Below are positions 20,622 to 39,606 of a DNA stretch of 64,000 bases, piece after piece. The notes beneath the pieces were generated by a model. That model was not told the DNA's origin and searched no databases. It was given only the letters and a program-made list of their open reading frames with translations. Source of the stretch: Actinomyces bovis (GTDB lineage Bacteria > Actinomycetota > Actinomycetes > Actinomycetales > Actinomycetaceae); NCBI RefSeq assembly GCF_900444995.1, contig NZ_UAPQ01000001.1, forward strand, positions 744,001 through 808,000, written 5' to 3'. Positions within the stretch are counted from its first letter, which is position 1. Each line of letters starts with the position of its first letter. A program made the position numbers and the translations under genes.

Positions 20622-20705
20622 GCAGACCGGCCCAGCCAGAACCATGGCTCGCGTCCAGACCGTGAGCCCCGCTATCCAGCCACAATGATGTGAAAGGACC
20701 CATCC

Positions 20706-22226: not shown

Positions 22227-22264
22227 GGCACTAACTGCTGAGGTATATCTCTTCTAAACCTGCG

Positions 22265-22309
22265 TTTTCGCGCGGGGGCTGCGTTAACACCGCAGCCCCC
22301 GCGCGAAAA
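22265..22309. terminator. Bidirectional hairpin terminator between glpK and the CstR-like gene
   Basis: A perfect 19-bp stem, TTTTCGCGCGGGGGCTGCG (22265-22283) against its complement (22291-22309), with a 7-nt loop. The stem starts with TTTT on one side and ends AAAA on the other, so a U-run exits in both directions. It serves two convergent genes. Confidence 0.9.
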
Positions 22310-22336
22310 TTTCACTTTGGCGGGCGCCAGCAAACC

Positions 22337-22606
22337 TTAGGACAGGGCGAGAAACATCTTCTCCAGGCGGCTGACGTCCAAGCTTTGATCCTTCGGTTCC
22401 GCAGACAGGCAGGCGCGCATGCCGGTGGCGATCACCGTGAAACCCGCCCGGTCCACAGCCTTAGAAACTGCCGCGATCTGCGTAACCACCTCTTCGCAAT
22501 CTCGCCCCTCTTCCAACATGCGGATTACGGCGTCGAGTTGCCCGCGGGCGCGCTTGAGGCGCGTGATAGTGGGGCGTAACTCTGCCGGATCAAGGTTGAC
22601 GGCCAC
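22337..22606 (-). CDS. CsoR-family repressor, CstR (persulfide sensor) type
   Basis: 89-aa all-helical DUF156 repressor. CsoR senses Cu(I) with Cys-His-Cys spaced 25 and 29 residues apart. Here Cys37 and Cys66 keep the 29-residue spacing, but the His position is Gly62 (TGMRAC), the pattern of CstR, where the two Cys form di- or trisulfides on exposure to persulfide or polysulfide. GTG start, three bases after the stop of the CoA-disulfide reductase-rhodanese gene, which is itself a sulfane-sulfur enzyme. A matching operator lies at 24608-24625. The copper-sensor alternative is unlikely without the His and without a copper ATPase nearby. Confidence 0.88.
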   Translation of the reverse strand: MAVNLDPAELRPTITRLKRARGQLDAVIRMLEEGRDCEEVVTQIAAVSKAVDRAGFTVIATGMRACLSAEPKDQSLDVSRLEKMFLALS

Positions 22607-22609
22607 GGC

Positions 22610-24343
22610 TCAACCCAGCTCTGACTGGCCGGGCTCGGCGCCGACCACACCGGTGCCGTTCACAGCTGACCAGGTGCGGTAGCCGCCGTCGAGATTGCGC
22701 ACTTGGCGACCCAGCTGGCTGAGCACTCTGGCGGCCACGTGCCCGCGCAAGCCAACCTGGCAGGACACCACCAGGGGGCCTTCGGGGAGCTGGTCTAGGT
22801 GTTCCCGCAGGCCGTCCACACTGATATTGACGGCGCCGGGGATGTGCCCGCGCTGGTATTCGGCGGCGCTGCGCACATCCACCACGGTGGCTCCCTGGGC
22901 GACGGCGGCGTCGAGTTCATGCCACTGCAAGGTGTCGGTGAGGCCGGAGAGCACATTGTCAGCGATCAGCCCGAGCATATGCACAGGGTCTTTGGCCGCG
23001 CCGAAGGACGGTGCGTAGGTGGTCTCCAGGTCGGCTAGGTCGGTGGCGCTCAGGCCGGCACGGATGGCCGTGGAGATGATGTCTATGCGCTTGTCCACGC
23101 CAGATTCCCCCAGGCCTTGGGCGCCGAGGATGCGCCCACTGCCCGCTTCCGCCACGAGTTTGAGGCTCATGCCTTTGGCCCCGGGGTAGTAGCCGGCGTG
23201 GTCGGCGGGGTGGTTGTGGATGACGACGACGTCAAGGCCGGCGGCGCGGGCGCGGGTTTCAGACCAGCCGGTCATGGCTACCTGCAGTCCCAGCACACCC
23301 ACGATGGCGGTGGCGATGGTGGGTAGGGCCTGCACGGGGCGGCCCATGATGGAGTCGGCCACTAAGCGACCGTGGCGGTTGGCTACCTGTGCCAGGGGCA
23401 CCAGGGTTGGGGCGCCGTCGATGGCTCCGGTTTTGACGGCGGCGTCTCCGGCGGCCCAGATATGGGGGTCGGAGCTGCGTTGCTGGGCGTCGACGACGAT
23501 CCCGCCGCGCTCATTGACTTCCAGCCCGGCGGCGCGGGCGAGTTCGGTGTCGGGGCGCACGCCGACGGCGGCCACCACGATGTCTGCGGGCACGGTAGTG
23601 CCGTCAGTGAGCTGAGCTTCGCGCTCGGTGAGTTGGGAAATAGAGGTGGCGGTGCGCACGTCAATGCCGACGCCGGTTAGGCGGGCGGCTACGGGGGCGG
23701 CCATCTCTGGGTCTAGTGGCGGCAGGACGTGCTCGGCGAGCTCCACGAGGGTGACGGCTAGGCCGCGGTGGTGGAGGTTCTCGGCCATTTCTAGGCCAAT
23801 GAAACCGGCCCCTAGGACGACGGCACTGCGGGCGGGGCCGCCGTCGACTCCCCCGGTGGCGACGGCGGCAGCGAGGGCGTCGGCGTCGCGCACGTCGCGC
23901 AGGCTCAGGGCCCGCTCAATGCCGGGGATTGGGGGCACGAAGGGCTGGGCGCCGGGGGCGAGGACTAGGGCGTCGTAGGGTAGTTCGGCCTCGGTGGTGG
24001 TGCCGTCGGGACTGGTGGTGCGCAGCTGGACGGTGCGGGCGCTGCGGTCGATGGCCAGGGCTTCGGTGCGCACGCGCACGTCCAGGTTGAAGCGGGCAGC
24101 CAAGGATTCGGGGGTCTGCAGCAGCAGGTCCTCGCGCTGGGGAATGACCCCACCCACGAAATACGGCAGGCCGCAGTTGGCAAAGGAGACATGCTCGCCG
24201 CGCTCCAGGACGGTGATCTGGGCGCGCTCATCCAAGCGACGCAGGCGGGTGGCGGCGCTCATTCCGGCAGCCACGCCACCAATGACGACTACGCGGCGGC
24301 TGGGGACGGAGGCCGAGTTGGCTAACTCTGCGGCGGCGGTCAT
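22610..24343 (-). CDS. CoA-disulfide reductase fused to a rhodanese domain
   Basis: 577 aa. Residues ~15-450 form an FAD/NAD(P)H disulfide oxidoreductase: GGVAAGMSAATRLRRLDE at the N-terminus, the single-Cys active site SFANCGLPY typical of CoADR and NADH oxidase, VLGAGFIGLEMAENL for NAD(P)H, and VWAAGDAA-like IWAAGDAAV. The last ~100 residues are a rhodanese with active-site loop SCQVGLRG. CoADR-Rhd proteins reduce CoA-persulfide or polysulfide and CoA disulfide. Middle gene of an operon: Cys-rich protein, this enzyme, CstR-like repressor, with three-base gaps. Expected role: sulfide/persulfide homeostasis in the cytoplasm. Confidence 0.92.
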   Translation of the reverse strand: MTAAAELANSASVPSRRVVVIGGVAAGMSAATRLRRLDERAQITVLERGEHVSFANCGLPYFVGGVIPQREDLLLQTPESLAARFNLDVRVRTEALAIDRSARTVQLRTTSPDGTTTEAELPYDALVLAPGAQPFVPPIPGIERALSLRDVRDADALAAAVATGGVDGGPARSAVVLGAGFIGLEMAENLHHRGLAVTLVELAEHVLPPLDPEMAAPVAARLTGVGIDVRTATSISQLTEREAQLTDGTTVPADIVVAAVGVRPDTELARAAGLEVNERGGIVVDAQQRSSDPHIWAAGDAAVKTGAIDGAPTLVPLAQVANRHGRLVADSIMGRPVQALPTIATAIVGVLGLQVAMTGWSETRARAAGLDVVVIHNHPADHAGYYPGAKGMSLKLVAEAGSGRILGAQGLGESGVDKRIDIISTAIRAGLSATDLADLETTYAPSFGAAKDPVHMLGLIADNVLSGLTDTLQWHELDAAVAQGATVVDVRSAAEYQRGHIPGAVNISVDGLREHLDQLPEGPLVVSCQVGLRGHVAARVLSQLGRQVRNLDGGYRTWSAVNGTGVVGAEPGQSELG

Positions 24344-24346
24344 GGC

Positions 24347-24535
24347 TCAGCGACCTCCGAGCAGGCGGGACAGGAAACCACCGGAGGCTGCGGAGTTAGC
24401 ATCCACTTTGGGGGCGTTGCGGTCACAGGTGCACCACTGGCCCTTGGGCACGGAGGCTTTGACGCGGTCGACGTGCTGGCCGCAGCCAGCCCAGGTGGTC
24501 TTTCCGCATTGCTTGCAGGTGACGGGACGGCACAT
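24347..24535 (-). CDS. Small Cys-rich putative zinc-binding protein
   Basis: 62 aa. It opens with MCRPVTCKQCGKTTWAGCGQH and continues to KGQWCTC, so Cys 2, 7, 10, 18, 35 and 37 plus His21 could form one zinc-ribbon-like site; the last ~25 residues are a Ser/Gly tail. Similar small proteins (CRxVTCxxCGKxTWxGCGxH) are widespread but uncharacterised. ATG 24535 was preferred over 24547 because GGAG lies six bases upstream of it and none precedes the other. First gene of the persulfide operon, directly downstream of the CstR-like operator, so sulfur chemistry on its thiols is a fair guess. Confidence 0.82.
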   Translation of the reverse strand: MCRPVTCKQCGKTTWAGCGQHVDRVKASVPKGQWCTCDRNAPKVDANSAASGGFLSRLLGGR

Positions 24536-24605
24536 ATGACTCTCCATCTCACAGTTGATGCTGGGTCAGATTGCGGTGCCCGGATAGGCACCTGACCACC
24601 CCAAG

Positions 24606-24634
24606 CTTATACCCCCCGGGGTATATAGGAAGAC
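24606..24634 (-). promoter_or_regulatory. CsoR/CstR-type operator over a promoter
   Basis: TATACCCC-CC-GGGGTATA at 24608-24625 is a perfect 8-bp inverted repeat with a 2-base spacer, the classic G/C-tract operator of the CsoR/CstR family. On the minus strand its right half supplies a TATAAG -10 (24606-24611). The region at 24629-24634 (GTCTTC) is in -35 position but weak. Bound repressor would block the operon of the Cys-rich protein. The plus-strand lctP gene starts only 115 bases away, so it may be affected too. Confidence 0.8.
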
Positions 24635-24739
24635 TTTAGTCCTGAGATGGGTCGTAACCATGGTCACGTCTGTGCCAGTATGTGCGGGCAACTGGCGGCA
24701 GCGACGATGCCCCCGCCTAGCCCTATCCACGGAGCAGTT

Positions 24740-26422
24740 ATGACTCTTGCAGCCTTGTCGGGCCTTCACCAGGCCCTTCCTTCGGCCACCTTTACCCCGT
24801 CGACGACGTCAGTGGGCGGCAATGTCTTTGCCACCGCCGCCGTCGGCCTGCTGCCACTGGTGGTGTTCTTCGTCCTCATGGGCGCCTTCAAGGTGAAGAC
24901 GCATTGGTGCGCGATCATCTCCTTTGCGCTGTCAGCGCTGATCGCGATATTCGCCTTCAAGATGCCTGCCGGGATGACGATCATGTCCGGCACCCAGGGC
25001 CTGGCCCTGGGCTTCGTGCCGATCATCTACATCATCATCGCGGCCGTGTGGCTCTACAACCTCACGGAGACCTCTGGGCGCAGCCAGGACCTCAAGGCCG
25101 TTTTCAACACCATCGGCAAGGGTGACCAGCGCGCCCAGGCCCTGATCGTGGCCTTCTCCTTCTGCGGCCTGATGGAGGGCCTAGCGGGCTTCGGCGCTCC
25201 GGTGGCTATTACCTGCGCCATGCTGGTCGCCCTGGGCCTGCCGCCGGTAAAGGCCGCCATCGTCACCATCGTGGGTAATGCCATCAACGTGGGCTTTGGC
25301 GCCATAGCTATCCCGACGACGACGGCAGGCAAACTCGGTGGCCAGGATCCCACCCTGGTGGCACAGAATATGGGGCATATCTCCTGGATCATCGCCACCT
25401 TTATCCCGCTGATTCTGCTGTTCATCCTGGACGGCTCTCGCGGCATCAAGCAGCTTTGGCCCCTCGCCCTGGTTTCTGGCTTTGCCACCGCCGCCGGCCA
25501 CTTCTTCATCCCCGAGATTTCCTACGAGCTCACCGCCGTCGTCGCCTCCTTGCTGGGCTTGGCCGCCTGTTACGTGTTCCTGCTCGTGTGGACCCCCACC
25601 ACCCCGGAGGAGTACCGCACTGAAGTTGCCGCTGAAGACAAGCCCAACGGCCAGCGCGTGGCCTTGGCCCTGCTGCCCTATGTGCTCGTGGTGGTGATTA
25701 TCGCGATCACCAAGCTGTTCAAGAGCTTGTCCAAGGCTCTGTCCGCCACAGATATCAAGATCAAATGGCCGGGCGTCTACGGTGACCTGCTAAACGCCAA
25801 AGGCGAGCCCTCAGGTTCCGCGATCTACAACTTGCAGATCCTGTCCAACCCGGGTACCTGGATCTTCGTCACCGCCATCATCGTGGCGATCGTCTATGGC
25901 CTGAACTCCTCCGGCGGGCGCTACCAGACCAGCGTGGGCAAGATGTTCGCGGTGCTGCCCAAGACCATCTACAACCTGCGGCTGGCGATCCTGACCATCT
26001 CCATGGTGATGGCCCTGGCCTACGTCATGAACTTCTCCGGCCAGACCACCTCCATCGGCGCAGCCCTGGCCACCACGGGCGCCGCCTTCGGCTTCTTGTC
26101 TCCGATGCTCGGTTATGTGGGCACGGCCGTGGCGGGCTCGGCTACCTCCGCTGGTGCGCTCTTCGCCAACCTGCAGGCCACCGCCGCAGCAGGCGCTGGG
26201 CTGGACCCGCAGATCCTGCTGGCTGCCAACACGATTGGTGGCGGTATCGGCAAGATCGTCTCCCCGCAGAACCTGGCAATCGCGGCCACCGCGGTGAACG
26301 CGCCCGGCACGGATGCGGAGATCCTGAAGAAGGCTGCGCCATACTCCATCGGCCTGCTGCTGGTGCTGTGCACGCTGGTGTTCATCGCCTCGCAGGGATG
26401 GTTGGGCAGCTATATGCCGTAG
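24740..26422 (+). CDS. lctP: L-lactate permease
   Basis: Proton-coupled lactate (glycolate) symporter of the LctP family. 560 aa with about 12-14 hydrophobic helices. Family marks include EGLAGFGAPVAI in the middle and GSATSAGALFANLQ plus NTIGGGIGKIVSPQNLAIA near the C-terminus. The start at ATG 24740 is decided by GGAG five bases upstream; the frame is open from 24647 but runs through the promoter region. It heads the lactate region: lutABC follows 373 bases downstream after a terminator-like hairpin, so it may be a separate unit. Confidence 0.95.
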   Translation: MTLAALSGLHQALPSATFTPSTTSVGGNVFATAAVGLLPLVVFFVLMGAFKVKTHWCAIISFALSALIAIFAFKMPAGMTIMSGTQGLALGFVPIIYIIIAAVWLYNLTETSGRSQDLKAVFNTIGKGDQRAQALIVAFSFCGLMEGLAGFGAPVAITCAMLVALGLPPVKAAIVTIVGNAINVGFGAIAIPTTTAGKLGGQDPTLVAQNMGHISWIIATFIPLILLFILDGSRGIKQLWPLALVSGFATAAGHFFIPEISYELTAVVASLLGLAACYVFLLVWTPTTPEEYRTEVAAEDKPNGQRVALALLPYVLVVVIIAITKLFKSLSKALSATDIKIKWPGVYGDLLNAKGEPSGSAIYNLQILSNPGTWIFVTAIIVAIVYGLNSSGGRYQTSVGKMFAVLPKTIYNLRLAILTISMVMALAYVMNFSGQTTSIGAALATTGAAFGFLSPMLGYVGTAVAGSATSAGALFANLQATAAAGAGLDPQILLAANTIGGGIGKIVSPQNLAIAATAVNAPGTDAEILKKAAPYSIGLLLVLCTLVFIASQGWLGSYMP

Positions 26423-26795
26423 GCATTTCTGCGCTGGTGCCTTAAGCCAGGTAGGACAGTGGCGCCGGTGGGCCTTTGGGCTCTCCGGCGCCACTTTCTT
26501 CATGGGGCGAACCCACCTGCGCTTTTACCGCCAGGCAGGACCTCACCACGGCCTGGGTCTAGCCTCTGCCGGGCCTCAGTAACAAAACCCAAGCCGAGGC
26601 TTGCGCAATACCTCTGCGGCAGCCGGACTTTCTAGCTTCCCAGACGCCCACATATCTCCCACCGTCGCAAGACTTTTCCGCACCATCACGGCCTTTCGTC
26701 CTAGTGAGCGCGCTGTGGCGCAGGCGCCCGTACGAAAGCGGTCTACGGCGTCAATATTCTGAGCCCGACCCGTCAACGACGCCGTGGAGGTAACC
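26423..26795. other. Gap between lctP and lutA
   Basis: 373 bases. The first part holds the lctP terminator (26458-26500). A possible -10 for lutABC is TATTCT at 26755-26760, without a convincing -35. Two copies of ACGSCGT (26745-26751, 26779-26785) occur. No convincing gene. Confidence 0.5.
26458..26500 (+). terminator. Hairpin terminator of lctP
   Basis: AGTGGCGCCGG (26458-26468) pairs perfectly with CCGGCGCCACT (26485-26495), loop 16 nt, followed by TTCTT. It ends the lctP transcript and separates it from lutABC. Confidence 0.8.
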
Positions 26796-27599
26796 GTGCG
26801 CATTGCACTCTTCGCGACCTGCCTAGCCGACACCATGTTCCCGCAGGCAGCGCAAGCAACCGTAAGCATTCTGGAGCGACTCGGACACGAAGTCGTCTTC
26901 CCTGAGGGGCAGGTGTGCTGCGGTCAGATGCACGCGAACACCGGCTACTTCAAACAGGCAGCAGCCATCACCCGCAATCACATCAAAACCTTCGCCCCAG
27001 TCCTCGACGGCGAGTGGGACGCCATCGTGGTCCCCTCCGGCTCCTGCACCGGAGCTGCGCGCCACGAGCAGGAGATCGTAGCCAAGCACGTTGGCGACGA
27101 CGATCTAGCCAAGCAAGTTGAGCGCATCGGCGCCCACACCTACGACCTATCCGAGCTGCTGGTGGATGTGCTCGGCCTGGAGGACGTCGGCGCCTACTTC
27201 CCCCACACCGTCACCTACCACCCCACCTGCCACTCCATGCGCGTAGCCAAGGTTGGGGACCGCCCCTACCGCCTGCTCAAAGCGGTGGAGGGCCTGACCT
27301 ACATTGAGCTGCCTGAGCAGAACGTCTGCTGCGGCTTCGGCGGCACCTTCTCCGTGAAGAACTCGGATGTTTCCACCGCCATGCTTGCGGACAAGGTCTC
27401 CAATGTGCTTAGCACCCGCGCTGAGGTGCTGTGCACCGGCGACTACTCCTGCCTGATGAACATTGGCGGCGGCCTGTCCCGCCTTAAGTCCGGTGTGCGC
27501 GTGATGCACCTGGCCGAGATCCTGGCCTGCACCAAGGACGCGCCTTTTGCCGGCAATATCTCCTTCGCCCCCGCTAGCTCACAGGTGGTGTCACGATGA
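26796..27599 (+). CDS. lutA: Lactate utilization protein A
   Basis: Cysteine-rich (CCG-domain) iron-sulfur subunit of the LutABC L-lactate dehydrogenase. 267 aa with two CCG motifs: VCCGQMHANTGY at about residue 45 and VCCGFGGTFSVK at about 180, plus HPTCHSMR. GTG 26796 was chosen because GGAGG lies five bases upstream and the protein then begins at RIALFATCL like its homologues. The stop overlaps the lutB start (ATGA), so translation is coupled. Confidence 0.95.
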   Translation: MRIALFATCLADTMFPQAAQATVSILERLGHEVVFPEGQVCCGQMHANTGYFKQAAAITRNHIKTFAPVLDGEWDAIVVPSGSCTGAARHEQEIVAKHVGDDDLAKQVERIGAHTYDLSELLVDVLGLEDVGAYFPHTVTYHPTCHSMRVAKVGDRPYRLLKAVEGLTYIELPEQNVCCGFGGTFSVKNSDVSTAMLADKVSNVLSTRAEVLCTGDYSCLMNIGGGLSRLKSGVRVMHLAEILACTKDAPFAGNISFAPASSQVVSR

Positions 27600-29218
27600 C
27601 GCAGACATACCTCGGCATGCCTCAGGCAGCCGACCCGAACGAGGTCCACACCGGCGGTTGGCGCACCAACGTCACCATCCCGGAAGACACCCTGCGCTGG
27701 GGCCCCACCTTCCAGGAGGGGGCGCGCAAAACCCTGGCCAACACTCAGATGCGCCGCAACCTGGGCCACGCCACCCGCACGATCCGTGGCAAGCGCCAGC
27801 AGCGCGTGGATGAGATGCCCGACTGGGAGCAGCTCCGCGACGCCGCCGAGGCCGTCAAATTCGAGGTGGCCTCCCGCCTCCCCGAGCTTCTAGAGCAGTT
27901 TGAACGCAATGTCACCGCCCACGGTGGCATCGTTCACTGGGCACGCGACGCCGCCGAGGCCAACGCGATCGTCACGGAAATCCTGAAGTCCAAGGGCTGC
28001 GACGACGTCGTCAAGGTCAAATCCATGGCCACCCAGGAAACCAACCTCAACGAGCACCTGAAGTCCGAGGGCATCACCGCCCACGAGACCGACCTGGCCG
28101 AGATGATCGTTCAGCTGGCCGACGACATGCCCTCCCACATCGTGGTTCCCGCGATCCACCGCAACCGCTCCGAGGTCCGCGGCATCTTCCTGGACCGCAT
28201 GGATGACGCCCCCAAGGACCTCTCCGACAAACCCGAAGAACTGGCCGGTGCCGCCCGCGCCCACCTGCGCAAGAAGTTCCTGCACGCCCCGGTGGCCATC
28301 TCCGGCACCAATATGGGTATTGCCGAAACCGGCACCGTATCCATCTTTGAGTCTGAGGGCAACGGCCGCATGTGCCTGACCCTGCCGGATACGCTCATCA
28401 CCCTGATGGGTATCGAGAAGCTGGTGCCCCGCTACCAGGACGCGGAGATCTTCGCCCAGCTGCTGCCGCGCTCCGCCACCGGCGAGCGCATGAACCCCTA
28501 CACCTCCATGTGGACCGGCGTCACCCCTGGTGACGGCCCCAAGGAGTTCCACCTAATCCTCATGGACAATGGCCGCACCAAGGTCCTCACGGACCCGATC
28601 GGCCGCCAGGCCCTGGCCTGCATCCGCTGCGGCTCCTGCATGAATATCTGCCCCGTGTACCAGCACACCTCCGGTCACGCCTACGGCTCGGTGTACCCCG
28701 GCCCCATTGGCGCAATCCTCACGCCCCAGCTCACGCAGGGCCTGGCGGACAAGGATCCGGTGCACACCCTGCCCTTCGCCTCTTCACTGTGTGGGGCTTG
28801 CGGTGAGGTCTGCCCCGTCAAGATCGACATCCCCACGATTCTTATCCACCTGCGCGCCCGCAGCGTGGACGTTAAGCGGCGGCTAATCCCGGATGTGTGG
28901 GACCTAGCCATGAGCGCCACCAGCCCTGCCATGAGCAACAAGCTGCTTTGGGGCGCCCTGGCGCAAGGGGCTAAGGCCACCCGCCTGGTAGGTAGGAAGA
29001 AGGGCCGGATCGGCCATATACCCGCACCGGTTATCAAGGGCTGGACGGCTGCGCGCGACATCCCGGTCACCCCCAAGGAGACCTTCCGCCAGTGGTGGCA
29101 CCGCACCCACCCGGGTTCGGATGCCAACGCCCCCCGTACCGACGCTCCTGCCCGTGGCTTGCCACTGGCCAGCGCTGAGGGCATGACCACCCGCACCAAC
29201 GACCAGCCGGAGGCCTGA
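27596..29218 (+). CDS. lutB: Lactate utilization protein B (LldF family)
   Basis: Iron-sulfur subunit of LutABC. 540 aa. The N-terminal two thirds is a LUD domain (GTNMGIAETGTV, TLITLMGIEKLVP), then two ferredoxin-type motifs CIRCGSCMNICPVY and CGACGEVCPVKI (about residues 345-410), and a C-terminal DUF3390-like part. It transfers lactate electrons onward with LutA and LutC. Longer than the usual ~475 because of an extra ~40-residue N-terminal segment and a hydrophilic C-terminal tail. Overlaps lutA by four bases; lutC follows after one base. Confidence 0.95.
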   Translation: MTQTYLGMPQAADPNEVHTGGWRTNVTIPEDTLRWGPTFQEGARKTLANTQMRRNLGHATRTIRGKRQQRVDEMPDWEQLRDAAEAVKFEVASRLPELLEQFERNVTAHGGIVHWARDAAEANAIVTEILKSKGCDDVVKVKSMATQETNLNEHLKSEGITAHETDLAEMIVQLADDMPSHIVVPAIHRNRSEVRGIFLDRMDDAPKDLSDKPEELAGAARAHLRKKFLHAPVAISGTNMGIAETGTVSIFESEGNGRMCLTLPDTLITLMGIEKLVPRYQDAEIFAQLLPRSATGERMNPYTSMWTGVTPGDGPKEFHLILMDNGRTKVLTDPIGRQALACIRCGSCMNICPVYQHTSGHAYGSVYPGPIGAILTPQLTQGLADKDPVHTLPFASSLCGACGEVCPVKIDIPTILIHLRARSVDVKRRLIPDVWDLAMSATSPAMSNKLLWGALAQGAKATRLVGRKKGRIGHIPAPVIKGWTAARDIPVTPKETFRQWWHRTHPGSDANAPRTDAPARGLPLASAEGMTTRTNDQPEA

Positions 29219-29219
29219 G

Positions 29220-29879
29220 ATGGATGCCAAGACCACAATCCTCACTCGTGCCCGTGACGCCATCGCCCGCTCTCAGGAGGGCCGTCCCGTCCGGGAGATT
29301 CCACGCGACTACATCCGCAAGGGTGAGCACGCGCCCGGCTCCGAGCCCGTCGTCGCCGATATGGTGGAGAAGCTGGAGGACTACTCCGCGAAAGTGACCC
29401 AGGCCGTCAAGGAGGCCGAGGTAGCCGACGCTATCGCTGCCTTCTTGGATGAGGCTGGCGCCAAGAGCGTCGTAGTGCCCACCGGCCTGCCGGAGGCCTA
29501 CAAGCAGGCCGCCGCGCGCGCGGGCCGCACCGTCCACGAGGACTCCCGGGAGACGCCGATCCCCACCTTGGAACTGGACACGATCGACGCCGTCGTGACC
29601 TGCTCGCGGGTGGGCATCGCCCTGTCCGGCACCATCTGCCTAGATGGCGAACCGGACCAGGGCCGCCGCGCCATCACCCTGGTTCCAGACACGCATGTGG
29701 TGGTCCTGGAGCGGGAGATGATCATGCCCACCGTCCCGGAGGCGGTGGACGTGCTGGGTCAGAACCCCACTCGCCCCACCACCTGGATCGCCGGTGGTTC
29801 CGCCACCAGTGACATCGAGCTGGTGCGCGTCAACGGTGTGCACGGCCCGCGAAACCTCAGGGTGGTCATCGCGCACTGA
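29220..29879 (+). CDS. lutC: Lactate utilization protein C
   Basis: LUD-domain protein, 219 aa, third subunit of the LutABC complex. Seen: SRVGIALSGTICLD and the closing GGSATSDIELVRVNGVHGP, the conserved C-terminal signature of LutC/YkgG. ATG immediately after the lutB stop. The transcript probably ends at the hairpin at 29930-29970. Confidence 0.95.
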   Translation: MDAKTTILTRARDAIARSQEGRPVREIPRDYIRKGEHAPGSEPVVADMVEKLEDYSAKVTQAVKEAEVADAIAAFLDEAGAKSVVVPTGLPEAYKQAAARAGRTVHEDSRETPIPTLELDTIDAVVTCSRVGIALSGTICLDGEPDQGRRAITLVPDTHVVVLEREMIMPTVPEAVDVLGQNPTRPTTWIAGGSATSDIELVRVNGVHGPRNLRVVIAH

Positions 29880-29929
29880 GCGCCACTTTGCTAGTGGCAC
29901 TGCGGAAAAGCCGTAGCGTCACTGATTAG

Positions 29930-29970
29930 CACCTCGCCCCGTCGGCTGCATAAGTCGGCGGGGCGAGGCG
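29930..29970 (+). terminator. Hairpin terminator of lutABC
   Basis: CACCTCGCCCCGTCG (29930-29944) against CGGCGGGGCGAGGCG (29956-29970): 15-bp stem with two non-Watson-Crick pairs (A-C and G-U in RNA), loop 11, then TCTTT. Confidence 0.75.
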
Positions 29971-30192
29971 TCTTTGGGAGACTTGTAGGCCCGCCGCTGT
30001 GCGGCTCTTTGCTAGGCCTGCGTGGTGGCGCTGCGGCCCGCACTCTCGCGCCAGCACGCGCCTTAGACACTAGAGGGCTGCTAGCCTCTTTGCTGTTCAA
30101 GGTGGATGGCAGCCCACAGCCCCAGGGCTAGGTTGATGTCCGCCACCGCCCTGTCCCGGGATCGGCGTCGATCCTGGACCTGAAACTAGATC

Positions 30193-30220
30193 TTGAATCA
30201 CCGGACCTGCACCGGATAAT
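30193..30220 (+). promoter_or_regulatory. Probable housekeeping-sigma promoter for the DivIVA-repeat gene
   Basis: TTGAAT (30193-30198), 16-base spacer, GATAAT (30215-30220). This implies a ~130-base 5' leader before ATG 30357 and gives the gene a promoter independent of lutABC. Confidence 0.6.
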
Positions 30221-30356
30221 TGAAACGCCTCGCGCACCTGCCCCTGCAGCCTGAGGTCATACGGCCTGGGCGCACCGGTTGGTGCCACCGCGCGAAATCC
30301 CCGGTGCCCGCCCCCTGGCGGCCGCACCACCACAGCACCACATCGAGGACCCTGAC

Positions 30357-30977
30357 ATGCTGCTGACCTCCACCCAAGTGACAGAATCGCGGTTCCCCGC
30401 CACTGAGCTGGTTGACGGCTACGACATCCACTCCGTGGACACCTACCTGGACCAGATCGCCAACACGCTGCGAGCCTGGGAAGTCGGCGCCAGCGGTGAC
30501 ACCGGACAGGCCATTCTGCGGGCCCAGGATGTCAACGACGTCGTCTTCCCAGTGACCACCGCGGTGGACGAGGAGGGCTACTCCGTGGAGCAAATCGACG
30601 ATTTCCTAGACGAGGTAGTGCGCACCCTGCAGCACTACGAGGCCCGCGCCACCGCCAGCGCCGCCGGCTCCACCGAGGGCCGCCCACTGACCGCAGAGGA
30701 CGTCAGCCACCTGGCCTTCACCACCGTAAAGCTCCAGGAGGGTTACGACCGCGAGCAGGTGGACACCGTGCGGGACAAGATCACCCTGACCCTGCGCGCC
30801 CGCGAGACAGGCACCTGGGTGGGCGGTCCCTTTGGGATGCTCACCTCCACTGACGTGCGCAAACTCGGCTTCCAACGCACCATGTTCCACACCGGCTACG
30901 AGCCCAATGAAGTCAACGCCTTCCTGGACGACGTCGCCCGGACGCTGGCCGAGTATGAGGCCAAGGCCTGCGCCTGA
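30357..30977 (+). CDS. Protein of four DivIVA-type (DivI1A) repeats
   Basis: 206 aa, built almost wholly from four ~40-residue repeats (about 3-42, 53-96, 110-150, 161-202). Each has the form 'T..(D/Q)V....F.......GY....VD..LD.I..TL', for example FPATELVDGYDIHSVDTYLD in the first. This is the N-terminal membrane-curvature/lipid-binding module of DivIVA/Wag31/GpsB, but there is no long coiled-coil tail and the usual copy number is one. ATG with GAGGA seven bases upstream. It lies between lutABC and lldD with its own promoter. Possible roles are a membrane or pole adaptor, or a competitor of real DivIVA; function unknown. Confidence 0.85.
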   Translation: MLLTSTQVTESRFPATELVDGYDIHSVDTYLDQIANTLRAWEVGASGDTGQAILRAQDVNDVVFPVTTAVDEEGYSVEQIDDFLDEVVRTLQHYEARATASAAGSTEGRPLTAEDVSHLAFTTVKLQEGYDREQVDTVRDKITLTLRARETGTWVGGPFGMLTSTDVRKLGFQRTMFHTGYEPNEVNAFLDDVARTLAEYEAKACA

Positions 30978-31069
30978 GACCCGAGCGCTGGGCCCCACGC
31001 GCTGGTTCTTGCGCCGCAAGCGCGGCGGCGTAGGGACGGATCAGTCTCGGGCTATACACCATCTTGCAC

Positions 31070-31088
31070 TTAGGTATGCCTGACCTTA
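31070..31088 (+). promoter_or_regulatory. DtxR/IdeR-like iron box upstream of lldD
   Basis: TTAGGTATGCCTGACCTTA matches the 19-bp DtxR/IdeR consensus TWAGGTTAGSCTAACCTWA at 16 positions, and AGGT/ACCT forms the dyad. TTGCAC at 31064-31069 is a possible -35, so the box would cover the spacer and -10 area. It is the only clear match noticed in the window. Iron-loaded DtxR would be expected to repress lldD (inference). Confidence 0.65.
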
Positions 31089-31173
31089 GTCTCAGTGCGG
31101 GCATCCGGGACTGCCCTCCATACGTACTCCCAGCCCACTTCAGCACTGTCCGTCAACAACGAAATCGGTCACT

Positions 31174-32442
31174 ATGGTCAAACGTCAGCTCCCCAATCCG
31201 TCTGAAATCTTCGAGCTCCTCCACTTCAAGACACCCGACTTCAACGCCCGCCGCCGTCGCCTCACTGCCGCCCAAACCATCTGGGACCTGCGTGCCATCG
31301 CCAAGCGGCGCACCCCCGCCGCCGCCTTCGACTACACCGACGGCGCCGCCGAGGGCGAAATCTCACTGCGACGCGCCCGCCAGGCCTTCCGCGACGTGGA
31401 GTTCCACCCCGACATCCTGCGGCCGGCGGTCGACGTCGACACCTCCTGCCAGATCCTCGGCGGCCCCTCGGCCATGCCCTTCGGCATCGCCCCCACCGGC
31501 TTCACGCGACTGATGCAAACCGAAGGGGAGATAGCCGGGGCCGGCGCCGCCGGAGCCGTCGGCATCCCCTTCACCCTCTCAACCCTGGGCACCACCTCCA
31601 TTGAGGACGTGCGCGCCGCCAACCCCCACGGCCGCAACTGGTTCCAGCTCTACGTCATGCGTCAGCGCGAGATCTCCTACGGGCTGGTCGAACGCGCCGC
31701 AGCGGCCGACTTCGACACCCTCATGTTCACGGTAGACACCCCCGTGGCCGGCGCTCGCCTGCGCGACAAGCGCAACGGCTTCTCCATCCCGCCCCAAATC
31801 ACGGCGGGAACCGTCCTCAACGCCATCCCCCGCCCCTGGTGGTGGTTCGACTTCCTGACCACACCCAAACTCGAGTTCGCCTCACTCAGCTCGACGGGCG
31901 GCACCGTGGGCGAGCTGCTCAACTCCGCCATGGACCCCACCATCAGCTACGAGGACCTTGAGGTCATCCGGGGAATGTGGAACGGCAACATCGTCATCAA
32001 GGGCGTCCAGAACATCCCCGACGCCAAGCGACTGCTGGACCTGGGCGTGGACGGCATCATCCTGTCCAACCACGGCGGGCGCCAACTGGACCGGGCCCCG
32101 GTGCCCTTCCGCCTGCTGCCCGAGCTGGTGCGGGAGGTCGGAGACGACGCCACAGTCATGATCGACACCGGGATCATGAACGGCGCCGACATCGTGGCCG
32201 CCACGGCACTGGGCGCCAAGTTCTCCCTCATTGGACGCGCCTACCTCTACGGGCTCATGGCCGGTGGTCGCGCCGGCGTGGACCGGACCATCGCGATCCT
32301 GCGCGAGGAACTCGTGCGCACCATGAGGCTCCTGGGCGTCTCCAGCCTTGAGGAACTCGAGCCGCGCCATGTCACCCAGCTGACCCGGCTGGTGCCGGTG
32401 CGCCCGCAGGTCAAGGCCGCAGCAGACGCCGTCTCCCGCTGA
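31174..32442 (+). CDS. lldD: FMN-dependent L-lactate dehydrogenase (alpha-hydroxy-acid oxidase family)
   Basis: Oxidises L-lactate to pyruvate with FMN, donating electrons to quinone. 422 aa, TIM barrel. Markers: [11 protein letters not shown] near the N-terminus, [40 protein letters not shown] (FMN-phosphate contact Lys), SNHGGRQLD with the catalytic His and Arg, and [19 protein letters not shown] with [12 protein letters not shown] closing the barrel. ATG 31174 has no clear Shine-Dalgarno. A DtxR-like box lies ~85 bases upstream. It duplicates the reaction of LutABC without iron-sulfur clusters. Confidence 0.95.
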
Positions 32443-32506
32443 TCACCGCCAGCTGACCGCCTCGGCCTCGTCATGAATACCCGGGGCGGTGCGAGTGAGC
32501 TTCCAG

Positions 32507-32551
32507 CTCATGGGCAGGTGCCTCTTACTGCTACAGGCACCTGCCCATGAG
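32507..32551. terminator. Hairpin between convergent lldD and lysS
   Basis: CTCATGGGCAGGTGCCT (32507-32523) pairs perfectly over 17 bp with 32535-32551, loop 11 nt. No U-run. Position between two converging genes supports a shared terminator. Confidence 0.8.
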
Positions 32552-32596
32552 GCGGGTCGGGTGAGGCGAGACTGACCAGTGCGCCCGCCGACGCAC

Positions 32597-34309
32597 TTAG
32601 GAACGCCTGACCAGCGGGAAGGTGATGGTCTCGCGAATGCCCTGGCCGGTCAGGGCCATCAGCAGTCGATCAATGCCCATGCCCATGCCGCCACAGGGCG
32701 GGAAGCCCTGCTCCATGGCCACCAGGAAGTCCTCATCCAGCACCATGGCCTCCGGGTCACCGTTAGCGGCAGCCAAAGCCTGCGCCTCAAAACGCTGACG
32801 CTGCACCACCGGGTCAGCCAACTCAGAGTAGGCAGTGGCAGTCTCGAAACCACGAATGTACAGGTCCCACTTCTCAGTCAGGCCCGGCTTTGAGCGGTGG
32901 TAGCGGGTCAGCGGGGAGGTGTCCTCCGGGAAGTCATATACAAAGGTCGGCTCCCACAGGTCATCGCCCACCGTGACCTCAAAGATGTCCTCCACGATCT
33001 TCCCGGCGACGGCGTAGTCATCCACCTCCAGATCCAGCTTTTCCGCCAGCTTGACGAGCTTCTCCCGTGGAGTCTCCACGGTGATCTCCTCCCCCACGCC
33101 CTCAGAGACCGCGGTGTAGAGGTCAATCTTGCGCCACTGGCCGGACAGGTCGTATTCAGTGCCGTCAGCCAGGGTGACGACCTCCTGGCCCTCCTCCAGA
33201 CCGAAGGCATCGCGGGCGGCCTGCTGCACTAGATTGCGGGTCAGGTCCGCCATGCCGTTGTAGTCCGAGTAGGCCTCATAGGCCTCCAGGGCGGTGAACT
33301 CTGGGGAGTGGGAGGAGTCGGCGCCTTCGTTGCGGAAGTTCCGGTTGATCTCAAAGACGCGGTCCACACCGCCCACCACCGCGCGCTTGAGGTAGATCTC
33401 CGTGGCGATGCGCAGGTAGAGGTCCAGGTCAAAGGCGTTCATATGGGTGGTGAAGGGGCGTGCGGCGGCACCACCGTGGATGACCTGCAACATGGGGGTC
33501 TCCAACTCCACGTACTCGCGGCGGTGGAAGTTCTCCCGCAGGGAGCGGACCACGGCGGCACGCGTGCGCACCATGTCGCGGGCCGCCGGGCGCGTCAGCA
33601 AATCCAGTTCACGGCGGCGCACCCGGTTGTCCTCAGACAGGGTGACGGCCTCGCCTGCCTCATTGGTCCAGGTTTTGGGCAGGGGCCGCAGCGCCTTAGA
33701 GGCAATGCGCCAAGCGGGGGTGGCGACGGCGTCGTCACCGAGCTCGGGCAGCGCAGCCGGGTCGGCGCCGTCTACCAGGGCAGTCTCCGCGAAGACAGAA
33801 AGCTCACCGCGGCGCGAGGAGATCACGCGGCCGTGGACAAAGAGGTGATCCCCTAGGTCTACGTCCGCTTTGAAGGCTGCCAGGCTGGTGTGCCCCTGGC
33901 CGGGCAGGGACTTGGCGGAGAGCATGGCCTGAATGGTGGCGCCCGCGCCGTCCTGCAGCGTCACAAAGCAGAGCTTGCCGCTGTTGCGCAGGAAGACCAC
34001 CCGGCCAGCCAGGCCTACTTCCTCCTGCGTCTCCTCGCCCGCTTCCAGGTGGGAGTAGGCGGCGCGGACCTTGGCGATGGTGGTGGTGATAGGCAGTTGG
34101 ACAGGGTAGGGCTCCCAGCCTTCCGCGCGCAGGCGCTCGCGTTTGGCGGCGCGGACCTCGAACTGCTCGCCGGGGCCGGGGTCAGCCTTGGGTGCTTTAG
34201 GGGCCTGGTCAGTCTGCTTGGGCTTGCCGGACTGCTCAGCCTGGGGGGCGGCGGCCTTTGCCTCGGCAGGGAGGGGAGTGTTCTCGGGCTGGTTCTGCGC
34301 GTCAGTCAC
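32597..34309 (-). CDS. lysS: Lysine--tRNA ligase (class II)
   Basis: Charges tRNA-Lys. 570 aa: a ~50-residue Lys/Pro/Ala-rich N-terminal tail, the OB-fold anticodon-binding domain (GRVVFLRNSGKLCFVTLQDG), then the class II catalytic domain with motif 2 in FEINRNFRNEGAD and SHSPEFTALEAYEAYSDY, and motif 3 GMGMGIDRLLMALTG. The GTG start has AGGA seven bases upstream. Follows panD by 34 bases on the same strand, as in other actinobacteria. The extended N-terminus and SHSPEF motif are typical of the actinobacterial type. Confidence 0.97.
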   Translation of the reverse strand: MTDAQNQPENTPLPAEAKAAAPQAEQSGKPKQTDQAPKAPKADPGPGEQFEVRAAKRERLRAEGWEPYPVQLPITTTIAKVRAAYSHLEAGEETQEEVGLAGRVVFLRNSGKLCFVTLQDGAGATIQAMLSAKSLPGQGHTSLAAFKADVDLGDHLFVHGRVISSRRGELSVFAETALVDGADPAALPELGDDAVATPAWRIASKALRPLPKTWTNEAGEAVTLSEDNRVRRRELDLLTRPAARDMVRTRAAVVRSLRENFHRREYVELETPMLQVIHGGAAARPFTTHMNAFDLDLYLRIATEIYLKRAVVGGVDRVFEINRNFRNEGADSSHSPEFTALEAYEAYSDYNGMADLTRNLVQQAARDAFGLEEGQEVVTLADGTEYDLSGQWRKIDLYTAVSEGVGEEITVETPREKLVKLAEKLDLEVDDYAVAGKIVEDIFEVTVGDDLWEPTFVYDFPEDTSPLTRYHRSKPGLTEKWDLYIRGFETATAYSELADPVVQRQRFEAQALAAANGDPEAMVLDEDFLVAMEQGFPPCGGMGMGIDRLLMALTGQGIRETITFPLVRRS

Positions 34310-34343
34310 GAGCTGATCCTACCGGGGCGAGGCCCCTACCTGG

Positions 34344-34799
34344 TCAGCGGCGAGCTTCAGTCAGCTTAGTGCCGGAGGATTTGAGGCCCTGCAGGCGGGC
34401 GACCTCCGAGTCTTCGGGCACCTGCCCGGGTTCAGTGCCACGCTCCACGATGTGGTTTTCCGCGTCCACAAAGACCACCTGTGGCAGGTAGCTGCGCGCG
34501 CTGGCGTCATCCAGCTGTGAGTAGCCGATGAGGATAACGACGTCGCCAGGCTGCACCAGGTGGGCGGCGGCGCCGTTGATGCAGATCTCGCCGGCGCCGC
34601 GCTTGCCGGGGATCACGTAGGTGGACAGGCGGTTGCCGTTGGTGCAGTCGCAGATGTCTACGCGCTCGCCGGGCAGGAAGCCGGCGGCGTCTAGCAGCTC
34701 TGCGTCCACGGTGATGGAGCCGACGTAGTCCAGGTCAGCTTGGGTCACGGTGGCGCGGTGAATCTTGGACGTCATCATCGTCCGCAGGCGGGTGCTCAT
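34344..34799 (-). CDS. panD: Aspartate 1-decarboxylase
   Basis: Makes beta-alanine for pantothenate. 151 aa with the self-cleavage site YVGS (Gly-Ser cleaved to give the pyruvoyl group), SKIHRATVT with the substrate Lys and His, and [24 protein letters not shown] 34799 is preferred (GGAG four bases upstream); ATG 34778 also works. A hydrophilic C-terminal tail of ~20 residues extends the usual ~130. Lies between panC and lysS. A perfect 30-bp inverted repeat (34902-34976) sits between panC and panD. coaX, often next in actinobacteria, is absent. Confidence 0.96.
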
Positions 34800-34901
34800 C
34801 GACTCCAGCCTATGGCCGGGAGCTCGGAGCATTGAAGTGGCGGCGCGGGAAAGTGGCAGAGCAGACAGGCTGCCCTCGCCTCGCCCCCCGCCCCACCCTC
34901 G

Positions 34902-34976
34902 TTCGGACAACCAAACGCCAAACGGACAACCATGCACCTGGTCGTAGGTTGTCCGTTTGGCGTTTGGTTGTCCGAA
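34902..34976. repeat. Perfect 30-bp inverted repeat between panC and panD
   Basis: Arms 34902-34931 and 34947-34976 are exact complements over 30 bases, with a 15-nt loop. Each arm contains GTTGTCCG twice around TTTGGCGTTTG. On the transcribed (minus) strand it follows the panC stop by 21 bases and precedes the panD start by about 100, so it may terminate or attenuate transcription, or be a mobile palindrome. Confidence 0.9.
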
Positions 34977-34997
34977 AAGGAGAAGACGGGCTGGGCC

Positions 34998-36056
34998 TCA
35001 GCTGAGCTTGACGATGGCGTTGTCGATCAGGCGGGTCTTGCCGACCTTGGCGGCCAGAGCCAACAAGCCAACAGCCGGCACGGGGGCAGCGGCGTCGGCG
35101 GGCAGTCCGAGGCCAGCGCCAGCCAGATCCACAAAGGAATCCGGGTCTACCAGCGCCACATAGTCGACCTCCACGCCGGGGGCAGCCTGCAGATGCTTAA
35201 GCGCGGCAGCACGCACGGCGACGGCGTCGGCCCCCTTAGCAGCAGCCTCAAGTCCAACCGCAAGCGCCTGGGAGAGAGCGAGCGCCTGTTGGCGTTCGGT
35301 AGCGGAAAGGTAGGCGTTGCGCGAGCTCATGGCCAGGCCGTCCCGCTCGCGGCGGATCTCTACCGGCACGATCTCCAGGGGGACGGAGAGGTCGCGGACC
35401 ATGGCGCGCACAATGGCGAGTTGCTGGGCGTCCTTGCGGCCAAACAGTGCCCACTGCGGGCTGGTCAGGTGCATGAGGCTTAGGACCACCTGACACACGC
35501 CACCAAAGTGCGTGGGGCGGGTCTTGCCCTCCAGGACGGTGGCGATCGGGCCGGGGTCGATACGCACGGCGGGGTCGCCGTCTGGGTACATGACCTCCGG
35601 GGTGGGGGCAAAGACCACCAGGCGGCCCACGCGCAAGGCGCCGTCGGGAGCGGTGAGGGTGGCGGTTAGGCCGGCGACGTCGGCCTCTAAGGTGCGGGGG
35701 TAGGCCTCCAAGTCCTCCCCGGCAGCAAATTGCAGCGGGTTGACAAAAATCGTGACGACGACGGTGCCCTGGTCACCGACGCGGCGGGCTGCCTCCGCAA
35801 CCAGGTCGAAGTGCCCCTGGTGAAGGGCACCCATGGTCATGACGACGGCCCGTGGGGCGGTGTCAGTACTGAGGGCGGCGGCTAGCTCAGCGCGGCTGCG
35901 GGCCAGCGTGGCGGCGGGAGGGAGGGCCGCAGGCGGGAGAGCGGCGGCCTTGCGGGCCGCACGGGCGGCGCTGGCGGCGTCGGCAGAGGCTGCAGGGGTT
36001 GCCGGGGAGGTCGCGGCGGTTGCAGGGGCGGTGGGCTGGTTGGACTCGGTGGTCAT
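34998..36056 (-). CDS. panC: Pantothenate synthetase
   Basis: ATP-dependent condensation of pantoate and beta-alanine. 352 aa, of which the first ~60 are an Ala/Pro-rich extension not found in most homologues (usual ~280-300). The core begins at TLARSRAELAAAL and shows the nucleotidyltransferase motif MGALHQGH, FVNPLQF, and MSSRNAYLS (KMSKS-equivalent). A TAATTT -10-like hexamer lies about seven bases before the ATG, so the message may be leaderless. Downstream of the DUF2520 gene. Confidence 0.96.
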   Translation of the reverse strand: MTTESNQPTAPATAATSPATPAASADAASAARAARKAAALPPAALPPAATLARSRAELAAALSTDTAPRAVVMTMGALHQGHFDLVAEAARRVGDQGTVVVTIFVNPLQFAAGEDLEAYPRTLEADVAGLTATLTAPDGALRVGRLVVFAPTPEVMYPDGDPAVRIDPGPIATVLEGKTRPTHFGGVCQVVLSLMHLTSPQWALFGRKDAQQLAIVRAMVRDLSVPLEIVPVEIRRERDGLAMSSRNAYLSATERQQALALSQALAVGLEAAAKGADAVAVRAAALKHLQAAPGVEVDYVALVDPDSFVDLAGAGLGLPADAAAPVPAVGLLALAAKVGKTRLIDNAIVKLS

Positions 36057-36118
36057 ACAGCCAAATTAGTCCGCCCACTGGCACCGCCGAAACCGCCCGC
36101 CTTTGCTTGGCGGCGCGT

Positions 36119-36232
36119 TCAACTCAAGCAGGCATCGCCGCGAACGTCCCGGCTTGCTCAATTCAAGCAGGCATCGCCGCGAGCGCCCCGACCTGCTTTA
36201 CGGCAAGCTCAACTCAAGCAGGCAGAGCCAAA
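36119..36232. repeat. Three imperfect tandem repeats between panC and the DUF2520 gene
   Basis: TCAAYTCAAGCAGGCATCGC begins at 36119, 36158 and 36209 (the third diverges after AGGCA), at 39 and 51 bases spacing. Neighbouring GCTTG/CAAGC pairs could form small hairpins around each copy. In the 212-base gap; function unknown. Confidence 0.7.
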
Positions 36233-36268
36233 ACCTCCCCCGTTGACTGTGCTGCACCGGCCAGGCTC

Positions 36269-37192
36269 TCAGTCGCGCGAGTCAGGCTCCTCCAAGACCT
36301 CGCGCACCGCCTGGGCCTGCTCACCGCTGATCCGCCCGCTCGCCTCACAGCGCTGCGCCGTCGCTGCAGCCAGCACCCGATAGGTGGCGACGACGTCGCC
36401 CAGCGCCTGCCCTTCAGCGTCGCGCAATTCCTGCAAAGCCTCTAGATGTGCGGCCACCGTCCCGGCGTCGCCGCGCGAGACTGGGCCGGTCAGCCCCGCC
36501 TCGCCCTCAGACAGGGCCCGCTCCAGCGCTGCCGCAAGCAGCGGGCGCAAGGTAGCGGCGCCGTCTTCAACTCCCACGGCGGCCAGCACTCGCACCGCCT
36601 GCCCCACCAGCGTCACCAAGTGGTTAGCGCCGTGCGCCAGGGCCGCGTGATAGGCAGGGCGGGCTGATTCTTCCAGCACAAAAGGCTCGCCCCCCAGCTC
36701 CACCGCAAGTGCCTGAGCGATTGGCAGCACCGCCGCGGGTGCGGTGACGGCCATGGGGCAGCCGACCAGGCGGGCGACGTCGGTAGAAAAGCCACCAAAG
36801 GTCATAGCGGGGTGGATCGCCAGAGGAATAGCTCCGGCTTGACGCGCAGGCTCTAGGACGGCGGTGCCGTAGCGGCCTGAGGTATGCACCACCAGTTGTC
36901 CGGCCTGCCAATGGCCGAGGTCTGCGGCGCCTTGAATTAGCGGCCCGAGGGCGTCGTCGGGGACAGCCAGTAAAACCAGTTCTGCGCGGCGCAGGATCTC
37001 GGGGACTTCCAGCAGTGGCACGCCTGGCAGCAGAACTTCGGCGCGCTCCTGACTTGCAGCTGAGACGGCGTGCACGCCAACCACTTGGTGCCCGGCGGCC
37101 CGCAAGGCTGAACCCAGGACGGCGCCAACGCGCCCAGCTGAGATGATGCCGACGCCGAGGCGCCCCGGGCGGGAAGAGTTGCCTGCACTCAT
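36269..37192 (-). CDS. Rossmann-fold, DUF2520 domain protein
   Basis: 307 aa. An N-terminal NAD(P)-binding domain (GVGIISAGRVGAVLGSALRAAG, LVLLAVPDDAL, VHTSGRYG) is followed by the helical DUF2520 domain (HPAMTFGG, ARPAYHAALAHGANHLVTL, GPVSRGDAGTV). The fold resembles hydroxyacid and ketopantoate dehydrogenases. It stands directly upstream of panC, a pairing conserved in actinobacteria, so a pantoate-pathway oxidoreductase role is tempting but unproven. From memory M. tuberculosis Rv3603c occupies the same place. Confidence 0.88.
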   Translation of the reverse strand: MSAGNSSRPGRLGVGIISAGRVGAVLGSALRAAGHQVVGVHAVSAASQERAEVLLPGVPLLEVPEILRRAELVLLAVPDDALGPLIQGAADLGHWQAGQLVVHTSGRYGTAVLEPARQAGAIPLAIHPAMTFGGFSTDVARLVGCPMAVTAPAAVLPIAQALAVELGGEPFVLEESARPAYHAALAHGANHLVTLVGQAVRVLAAVGVEDGAATLRPLLAAALERALSEGEAGLTGPVSRGDAGTVAAHLEALQELRDAEGQALGDVVATYRVLAAATAQRCEASGRISGEQAQAVREVLEEPDSRD

Positions 37193-37345
37193 GGCTTGAC
37201 CCTATCCCGGGGGCAGCAGCGTTCTCAGTGGCGAAGGCGAGCGGCCATGCGGCGTGGTGGCCCAGTGAGGTGGCGTGGCAGGGGTGATCTCGCGGCGCGG
37301 CGCTCTCAGCGCGAAGCAGTCGCTGCGCCGCTGGCTCTCCTGAGC

Positions 37346-39097: not shown

Positions 39098-39606
39098 AGT
39101 CCGGCCATTCGCTGTTCGCCGCGCTCGGACAGCAGCTGGCGCAGGTGTTCGGCCTCCGCTACTGGGAGCCCGTTGATGGTGGCGTCAGTGGAGGCAGAAG
39201 CGGTGTGCAACTTGACTTCCGCGATGCCCAGGTAGCGGGCCAGCGGCCCCTGGGAGGTGTCCACAAACTGCATGCGCCCGTAGGGGATCACGCAGATACG
39301 GCGGAACATAATGCCTTTGCGCCACAGCAGGTGGTCGTCGGCTAGGGCGTAACCCATGGCTCGCACCTGGCGGGGGATCAGCCACAGCTCCCACAGTAAG
39401 CTCAGCGCACCGAGTACAGCACCCGCGTAGAACCAGGGGTTCACCAGCACGCCGGCCACGGCAAAGCCCACGATGCAGGCCAGGTCCAGCACCACTGCGG
39501 GGATTAGGCGGGCGGTGGCTAAGCGTGGGGAGATGGGGTGGAAGGTGACCGCTTCTGGCGCGAAGGGGTCGGCGCTGCGGCTGGGGTTGGCCGAGGTGGG
39601 TGTCAT
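39094..39606 (-). CDS. PH domain membrane protein, YdbS-like
   Basis: 170 aa with two adjacent membrane helices (LIPAVVLDLACIVGFAVAGV and FYAGAVLGALSLLWEL), then one bPH2 domain with the family hallmark RRICVIPYGRMQFVDTSQGPLARYLG. ATG 39606 was set by GGAGAG upstream. Partner of the larger PH protein that overlaps its 3' end. Confidence 0.9.
   Translation of the reverse strand: MTPTSANPSRSADPFAPEAVTFHPISPRLATARLIPAVVLDLACIVGFAVAGVLVNPWFYAGAVLGALSLLWELWLIPRQVRAMGYALADDHLLWRKGIMFRRICVIPYGRMQFVDTSQGPLARYLGIAEVKLHTASASTDATINGLPVAEAEHLRQLLSERGEQRMAGL

Follow-up and report, generated by a model that had tools for sequence, protein, structure and literature searches.

Tandem arrays of DivIVA-like domains were described in 2023 by Martinez-Goikoetxea and Lupas, who defined the DivIVA-like domain and named PolyDIV those actinobacterial chains that carry two to eight such domains in tandem, mostly four (PMC9858780, in the sections considered here). 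According to these sections, PolyDIVs are widespread in Actinobacteria, lone DivIVA-like modules dimerise, and AlphaFold monomer models show domains 1 and 2 as well as domains 3 and 4 paired inside a single chain, whereby the residues ahead of the GYD motif vary and UMP kinase is encoded near most clusters. A hub role was proposed for PolyDIVs in this work, which is computational and contains no bench experiment in the parts considered (PMC9858780). The module is also known from proteins with one copy per chain. In DivIVA the domain binds lipid and it is held to do likewise in Wag31; Phe17 in the loop of Bacillus subtilis DivIVA touches lipid, and the loop of Wag31 is lined by the conserved residues Lys15, Lys20, and Arg21 (PMC7340271, in the excerpt consulted). 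In GpsB, D35 contacts the peptide backbone and the arginine finger sits in an acidic cavity (PMC6335420, likewise in excerpt). NCBIfam lists a DivIVA domain repeat protein as TIGR03543 (divI1A_rptt_fam). A whole-word literature search for PolyDIV gave PMC9858780 as the only paper relevant by title. Besides this paper, nothing relevant by title was returned for Actinomyces together with DivIVA, nor for DivIVA tandem repeats, and the queries “DivIVA domain repeat protein” and DivIVA domain-containing protein together with UMP kinase returned nothing.

Here, we analyzed a gene with four such modules within the window, that is, the whole 64,000-nucleotide stretch of DNA under study. The gene and its surroundings are organized as follows.

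29220..29879, + strand: lutC-like gene (LUD domain), neighbour on the upstream side (Pfam)
30345..30349, + strand: GAGGA, likely ribosome-binding site, with the ATG seven bases on (sequence)
30357..30977, + strand: PolyDIV-family protein of 206 aa with four DivIVA-like modules (ORF, profile matches, model)
30360..30485, + strand: module 1, residues 2-43, loop LVDGYD (own module model)
30516..30644, + strand: module 2, residues 54-96, loop DEEGYS (own module model; 2wuj superposition)
30684..30809, + strand: module 3, residues 110-151, loop LQEGYD (own module model)
30837..30962, + strand: module 4, residues 161-202, loop FHTGYE, top single TIGR03544 match (profile and own module model)
31174..32442, + strand: lldD-like gene for an FMN-dependent dehydrogenase, neighbour on the downstream side (Pfam)
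32597..34309, − strand: lysS, which marks the locus stably throughout the genus (comparison of genus genomes)

The initial annotation had described four tandem DivIVA N-domains that make up nearly the whole protein, encoded between lactate genes, and this description was confirmed. The protein matches TIGR03544 (NCBIfam DivIVA domain) with an E value of 1.3e-32 and PF05103 (Pfam DivIVA) with an E value of 1.5e-16, in each case in four stretches. Such four-module matches with two independent libraries exceed chance by far, and the identity of the ORF as a four-module DivIVA-domain protein is near certain. The module borders, which were taken from a local model built on the family's own modules and shifted to the ATG, are approximate; beyond module 4 there is a tail of four residues. 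The ATG start is supported by the GAGGA motif and by the frame of the relative G009, which starts just three codons ahead of this methionine. The reading frame is intact in the window genome (G000), G009, and G013. Pfam assigned the lactate neighbours to a lactate permease, a LutA-like CCG protein, LutB-like and LutC-like LUD proteins, and the FMN-dependent dehydrogenase, of which the permease LctP also scored above its NCBIfam cut-off.

With four DivIVA-like stretches in one chain, the protein lies within the range of two to eight and is a member of the already described PolyDIV family. Thus, the view that this architecture has no prior description was not borne out, four modules being the commonest form in the published account (PMC9858780, in the sections considered). 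The pattern GY[DN]xx[QE]V[DN], which was used there for the first collection, fits one of the four modules (module 3, GYDREQVD), and the extended pattern GY[DN]xx[QE]V[DN]xx[ILV]xx[ILV] fits none of them. The latter does not exclude the protein, because the extended pattern is applied there at the level of clusters and concerns at least half of the sequences of a cluster (PMC9858780, same sections). The proximity to UMP kinase, which holds for most clusters but is not strict, was not observed, since pyrH is located at about 341 kb of contig G000:C2 and the window gene at 774 kb. The scores were below the cut-offs of TIGR03543 (59.3 bits, cut-off 154.2) and of the NCBIfam equivalog for GpsB, NF010725 (50.4 bits, 91 needed), and four modules plus the four-residue tail stand in place of the single N-domain and long coiled coil of DivIVA and Wag31. 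As a side observation from another genus, a Murinocardiopsis ORF directly in front of a four-module PolyDIV (L056:5621-5950) itself contains two RGYDR-type motifs.

The gene near lysS represents a second PolyDIV paralogue, which is divergent and lineage-specific. The same genome codes for Wag31 (contig C10), an open frame of 466 aa that matches Pfam DivIVA once, and a core PolyDIV of 182 aa, which is encoded between rlmN-like and dxr genes about 6 kb from pyrH and reaches 213 bits with TIGR03543 (cut-off 154.2). The core PolyDIV exceeds this cut-off in all 49 genus genomes searched; among 296 genomes drawn across the phylum, six passed it. Wag31 of the window genome is 77% identical to that of A. 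urogenitalis, and for most proteins encoded next to wag31 the nearest named kin is from Actinomyces (best 80 of 102 matches). A first scan of named genomes gave no match, and a scan with alignment A1 gave mostly single-module DivIVA proteins among the best 80 of 102 matches. A few genus genomes contain, a few hundred bases from wag31, one more short ORF with a DivIVA domain, the open frames spanning about 90-140 aa, e.g., at G014:C4:168134-168286 and G066:C38:60731-60883.

lysS is present in 49 of 49 genus genomes, and a DivIVA-domain match was detected within 5 kb of it in 32 of them (on the other side of lysS in G018 and G070). The stretches fetched revealed DivIVA-domain ORFs near lysS in 30 of the 49 genomes, namely 34 ORFs with one (3; G023, G034, and G024), two (23), four (7), or six modules (1). 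Matches that span the window-family alignment occurred in seven of the 49 genomes: G000, G009, G013, G015, and G022 (366-400 bits), from which the alignment itself was built, as well as G028 (181 bits) and G029 (148 bits). Actinomyces belongs to the order Actinomycetales, and 198 genomes of the order, six of them from this genus, were also searched. The best match from outside the genus reached 63.5 bits at half coverage, and one near-full-length match had 58.9 bits (G379).

Structure prediction from the single sequence was unusable (pLDDT 36.3). AlphaFold2 with five sequences (window protein plus four relatives, alignment A3) yielded a model with a mean pLDDT of 77.1 and a pTM of 0.47, in which a short helix, a loop, and a long helix are repeated four times. 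The long helices (residues 24-42, 77-104, 132-151, and 183-205) span 19-28 residues, one per module. The protein had been annotated as lacking a coiled coil, which holds true for the long C-terminal coiled coil only, since each module contains a helix of its own. In a comparison with VIA-align, 11 of the 15 top rows were N-domains of DivIVA, GpsB, or Wag31 with Z scores of 4.0-4.7, which is middling by the scale of the tool, and DivIVA 2wuj was superposed on model residues 54-107 (module 2) with an rmsd of 1.6 over 50 residues. These matches fall chiefly on module 2, and the fold of the other modules is assigned from sequence and predicted secondary structure. The row ranked first was a poly-HAMP chain (Z 5.1, rmsd 17.8), which we regarded as a fortuitous match between helices and did not consider further. 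Foldseek gave nothing for the model at E ≤ 0.001, with GpsB rows at E 2.2-4.9 only. When solved structures were searched by sequence, matches to GpsB and Wag31 reached only E 0.11-0.82 and were ranked below DsrF, whose match (E 0.0035) was taken as chance. No inter-module contacts were seen in the AlphaFold2 model, whose pTM of 0.47 is compatible with several arrangements.

The spacing and identity of the modules were compared, and both point to modules 1-2 and 3-4 probably being paired inside one chain. For eight four- or six-module ORFs, three of which are near-copies of one lineage, the mean spacing of the GY anchors inside a pair is 53.4 (16 values; a seventeenth could not be measured), compared with 62.1 from one pair to the next (9 values). 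The difference is clearest in G028 (51, 53, and 54 within vs. 78 and 78 between pairs), whereas G059 (70, 52) contradicts pairing and the spacings of the window protein (53, 55, 51) are neutral by themselves. Among 22 modules from five proteins, near-copies being left out, the identity is 0.44 for modules of the same parity and 0.36 for those of different parity, a difference that was as large in 1 of 2000 permutations. By our own heptad score, a C-terminal zipper follows a Gly/Ala/Tyr-rich linker in 14 of the 23 two-module and one of the three one-module ORFs; none of the eight four- and six-module ORFs, whose tails have 2-9 residues, carries one. Since the 14 ORFs sit in 12 genomes, mostly of one clade of the tree, they represent few independent events. 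This suggests, but no more than that, that two modules plus dimerisation can replace four modules in one chain. It would be a rather doubtful further step to assume that a four-headed DivIVA hub is built in two ways at one locus of the genus, either by a two-module chain dimerised via its zipper or by a four-module chain without zipper, and that the hub of the window lineage also lost its membrane-facing charge and became a soluble regulator of ordinary DivIVA proteins.

Two sequence features were identified upstream of the gene.

30071..30090, + strand: upstream element TAGAGGGCTGCTAGCCTCTT, an imperfect palindrome, conserved before the gene in three species
30193..30220, + strand: sigma-70-like promoter match TTGAAT-16-GATAAT (one found, shuffles mean 0.1)

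The first 18 bases of the upstream element are exactly kept in the three species despite a different upstream gene (lutC, a pentapeptide-repeat gene, or lldD), and, with up to two mismatches allowed, the genome contains this 18-base core only once. An RNA leader was considered and rejected, because there was no Rfam match up to E 1 within 29850-31200 and the element folded no better than shuffles in the three species (z −1.10, 0.00, and −0.36). The promoter of its own that the initial annotation had ascribed to the gene agrees with the sigma-70-like site; however, it is plausible only, since this stretch is missing in G009.

Two proposals for the function of the protein had been made in the initial annotation. 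One is a multivalent membrane or pole scaffold, whose four membrane-binding tips would provide avidity for curved membrane, in line with the lipid binding of the domain in DivIVA and, as is held, in Wag31 (PMC7340271, excerpt) and with basic loops such as FREGY, which are kept in most lysS-locus relatives and in the own Wag31. Within the window lineage (three related species, 12 modules), however, none of the 12 modules has K or R among the three residues that precede GY, compared to 62 of the 71 other modules at the lysS locus; this loss belongs to the history of a single lineage. In module 3, a lysine is located one position further out (KLQEGY), and position −3 is still hydrophobic in three of the four window modules. 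The net charge of the window protein is −18, that of the own Wag31 −12, and that of the core PolyDIV −2. The distant four-module relatives G022 and G015 have net charges of −20 and −21, yet three of the four modules of each retain their basic loops, and therefore it is the loops, not the overall charge, that set the window lineage apart. Thus, the idea of a multivalent scaffold stands while its membrane part is weakened; a membrane scaffold is unlikely, a soluble multivalent adaptor appears favoured over it, and on the basis of the loop residues we lean towards a protein without membrane anchoring. The positions of GpsB D31 and D35 are occupied by D/D, D/D, D/D, and N/D in modules 1-4, whereby aspartate at the D35 position occurs in all four window modules and in 54 of 83 modules overall. 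This conservation fits a peptide-holding role, but it could also be structural. Arg18 of DivIVA and Tyr25 of GpsB are further sites of interest. The other proposal is a DivIVA antagonist; in the form considered here, such an antagonist or decoy would cap or sequester Wag31 or the core PolyDIV through pairing of its modules with these proteins. Both possible targets are encoded in the same genome and single DivIVA-like modules dimerise (PMC9858780, sections considered), but intramolecular pairing would bury the dimer face, which makes an antagonist improbable.

It might also be that the product is an accessory of the lactate locus, e.g., a holder of LldD or Lut proteins, given that the gene lies between lutC and lldD. 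lldD is present in 28 of the 49 genus genomes, and a DivIVA match near lysS was found in 27 of these 28 vs. 5 of the 21 without lldD. When checked against the lysS tree, this co-occurrence came down to three independent pairs on well-supported branches (six on all branches; on average 1.8 the same way and 1.0 the other way), which are too few to test, so that a lactate function deduced in this way is unsupported. In addition, lldD is lacking in G009 and G022 although both carry the gene, G025 has lldD (95% identical) but not the gene, and the genes between lysS and lutCBA differ from species to species. A lactate accessory is thus very unlikely, and the lactate neighbourhood is treated as position only. 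It is likewise hardly probable that the gene is a relic of little function, drifting within a family of modules that duplicate, although presence, copy number, and module number (1, 2, 4, 6) vary, single-module ORFs exist in three genomes, and dN/dS between G022 and G015 is 0.62. In our own counting script, the window gene yielded a dN/dS of 0.137 vs. G009 and 0.142 vs. G013, and therefore it is under purifying selection in its three-species lineage, where the frame is intact and the upstream element is conserved. The values vs. G022 (0.58) and G015 (0.54), together with that between these two, indicate that the constraint on the wider family looks weaker.

Other genes of the lysS locus were inspected as well. 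Pentapeptide-repeat and PadR-ABC-FtsX genes lie beside two-module forms in many genomes, yet they are also present at the locus without a DivIVA ORF (e.g., G012, G014, G064), and a link with them was rejected; they were not found at positions 20001-40000 of the window (20 kb searched). In L047:4191-9958, genes for a PadR regulator, an ABC ATPase, an FtsX-like permease, a pentapeptide-repeat protein, and two two-module PolyDIVs form a row on the same strand, whereby the start codon of the first PolyDIV gene (ATG at 8799) and the end of the pentapeptide-repeat gene overlap, and similar rows exist in several other genus genomes. Adjoining these PolyDIV genes (L047:9961-11869), there is an AAA_21 ATPase and RloB pair, possibly a defence pair at the lysS locus, whose relatives occupy the same position in eight other genomes. 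A small uridine-kinase-like ATPase (L040:8532-9257; 32 bits, uridine kinase cut-off 180) recurs at the lysS-lut locus of many genus genomes.

Overall, we favour, with a probability of roughly 0.55, that the window protein, encoded by a second, lineage-specific PolyDIV paralogue, acts as a soluble multivalent connector whose two DivIVA-like heads are formed intramolecularly. Modules 1-2 and 3-4 would pair within the chain, each pair copying the homodimer head of DivIVA or GpsB, and the protein would therefore be monomeric, with a flexible linker between its two heads. The replacement of basic tip residues by acidic or neutral ones, together with the net charge of −18, would preclude membrane anchoring, and we infer that the connector may hold at least two protein partners close together in the cell-envelope growth machinery. 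Candidate partners would be other proteins of the DivIVA family or basic peptides, comparable to the arginine-bearing tails to which GpsB binds. In Actinomyces, a single locus provides a compact series of natural variants, with 1, 2, 4, or 6 modules, with and without zipper, and with and without basic loops; as it stands beside a core copy in 49 of 49 genus genomes searched, this series could be used to ask which purpose the repeats serve.

Compared with known systems, the window protein shares the module fold with DivIVA and Wag31, which have one module plus a long coiled coil and whose lipid-facing loop contains Phe17 in B. subtilis DivIVA or Lys15, Lys20, and Arg21 in Wag31 (PMC7340271, excerpt). 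It shares the fold also with the N-terminal domain of GpsB, the aspartates at the D31 and D35 positions being mostly kept; in contrast, GpsB has one module per chain, and arginine-tail binding is a feature of GpsB that is only a candidate for the window protein. The TIGR03543 family has tandem DivIVA-type repeats as well and a true member in the same genome (213 bits), but the window protein stays at 59.3 bits against 154.2. The two-module ORFs of other Actinomyces have the genomic place and the module type in common with the window gene and differ by their two modules, with 14 of 23 having the linker and heptad zipper (own score) and 9 of 23 lacking them. With regard to PolyDIVs, the window gene differs in its distance from pyrH, in the motif being confined to module 3, and in loops without basic residues, and the orders listed in the sections considered do not include Actinomycetales (PMC9858780); shared are the tandem DivIVA-like domains in one actinobacterial chain and four as the commonest number, and a pairing of modules 1-2 and 3-4 is probable for the window protein, too.
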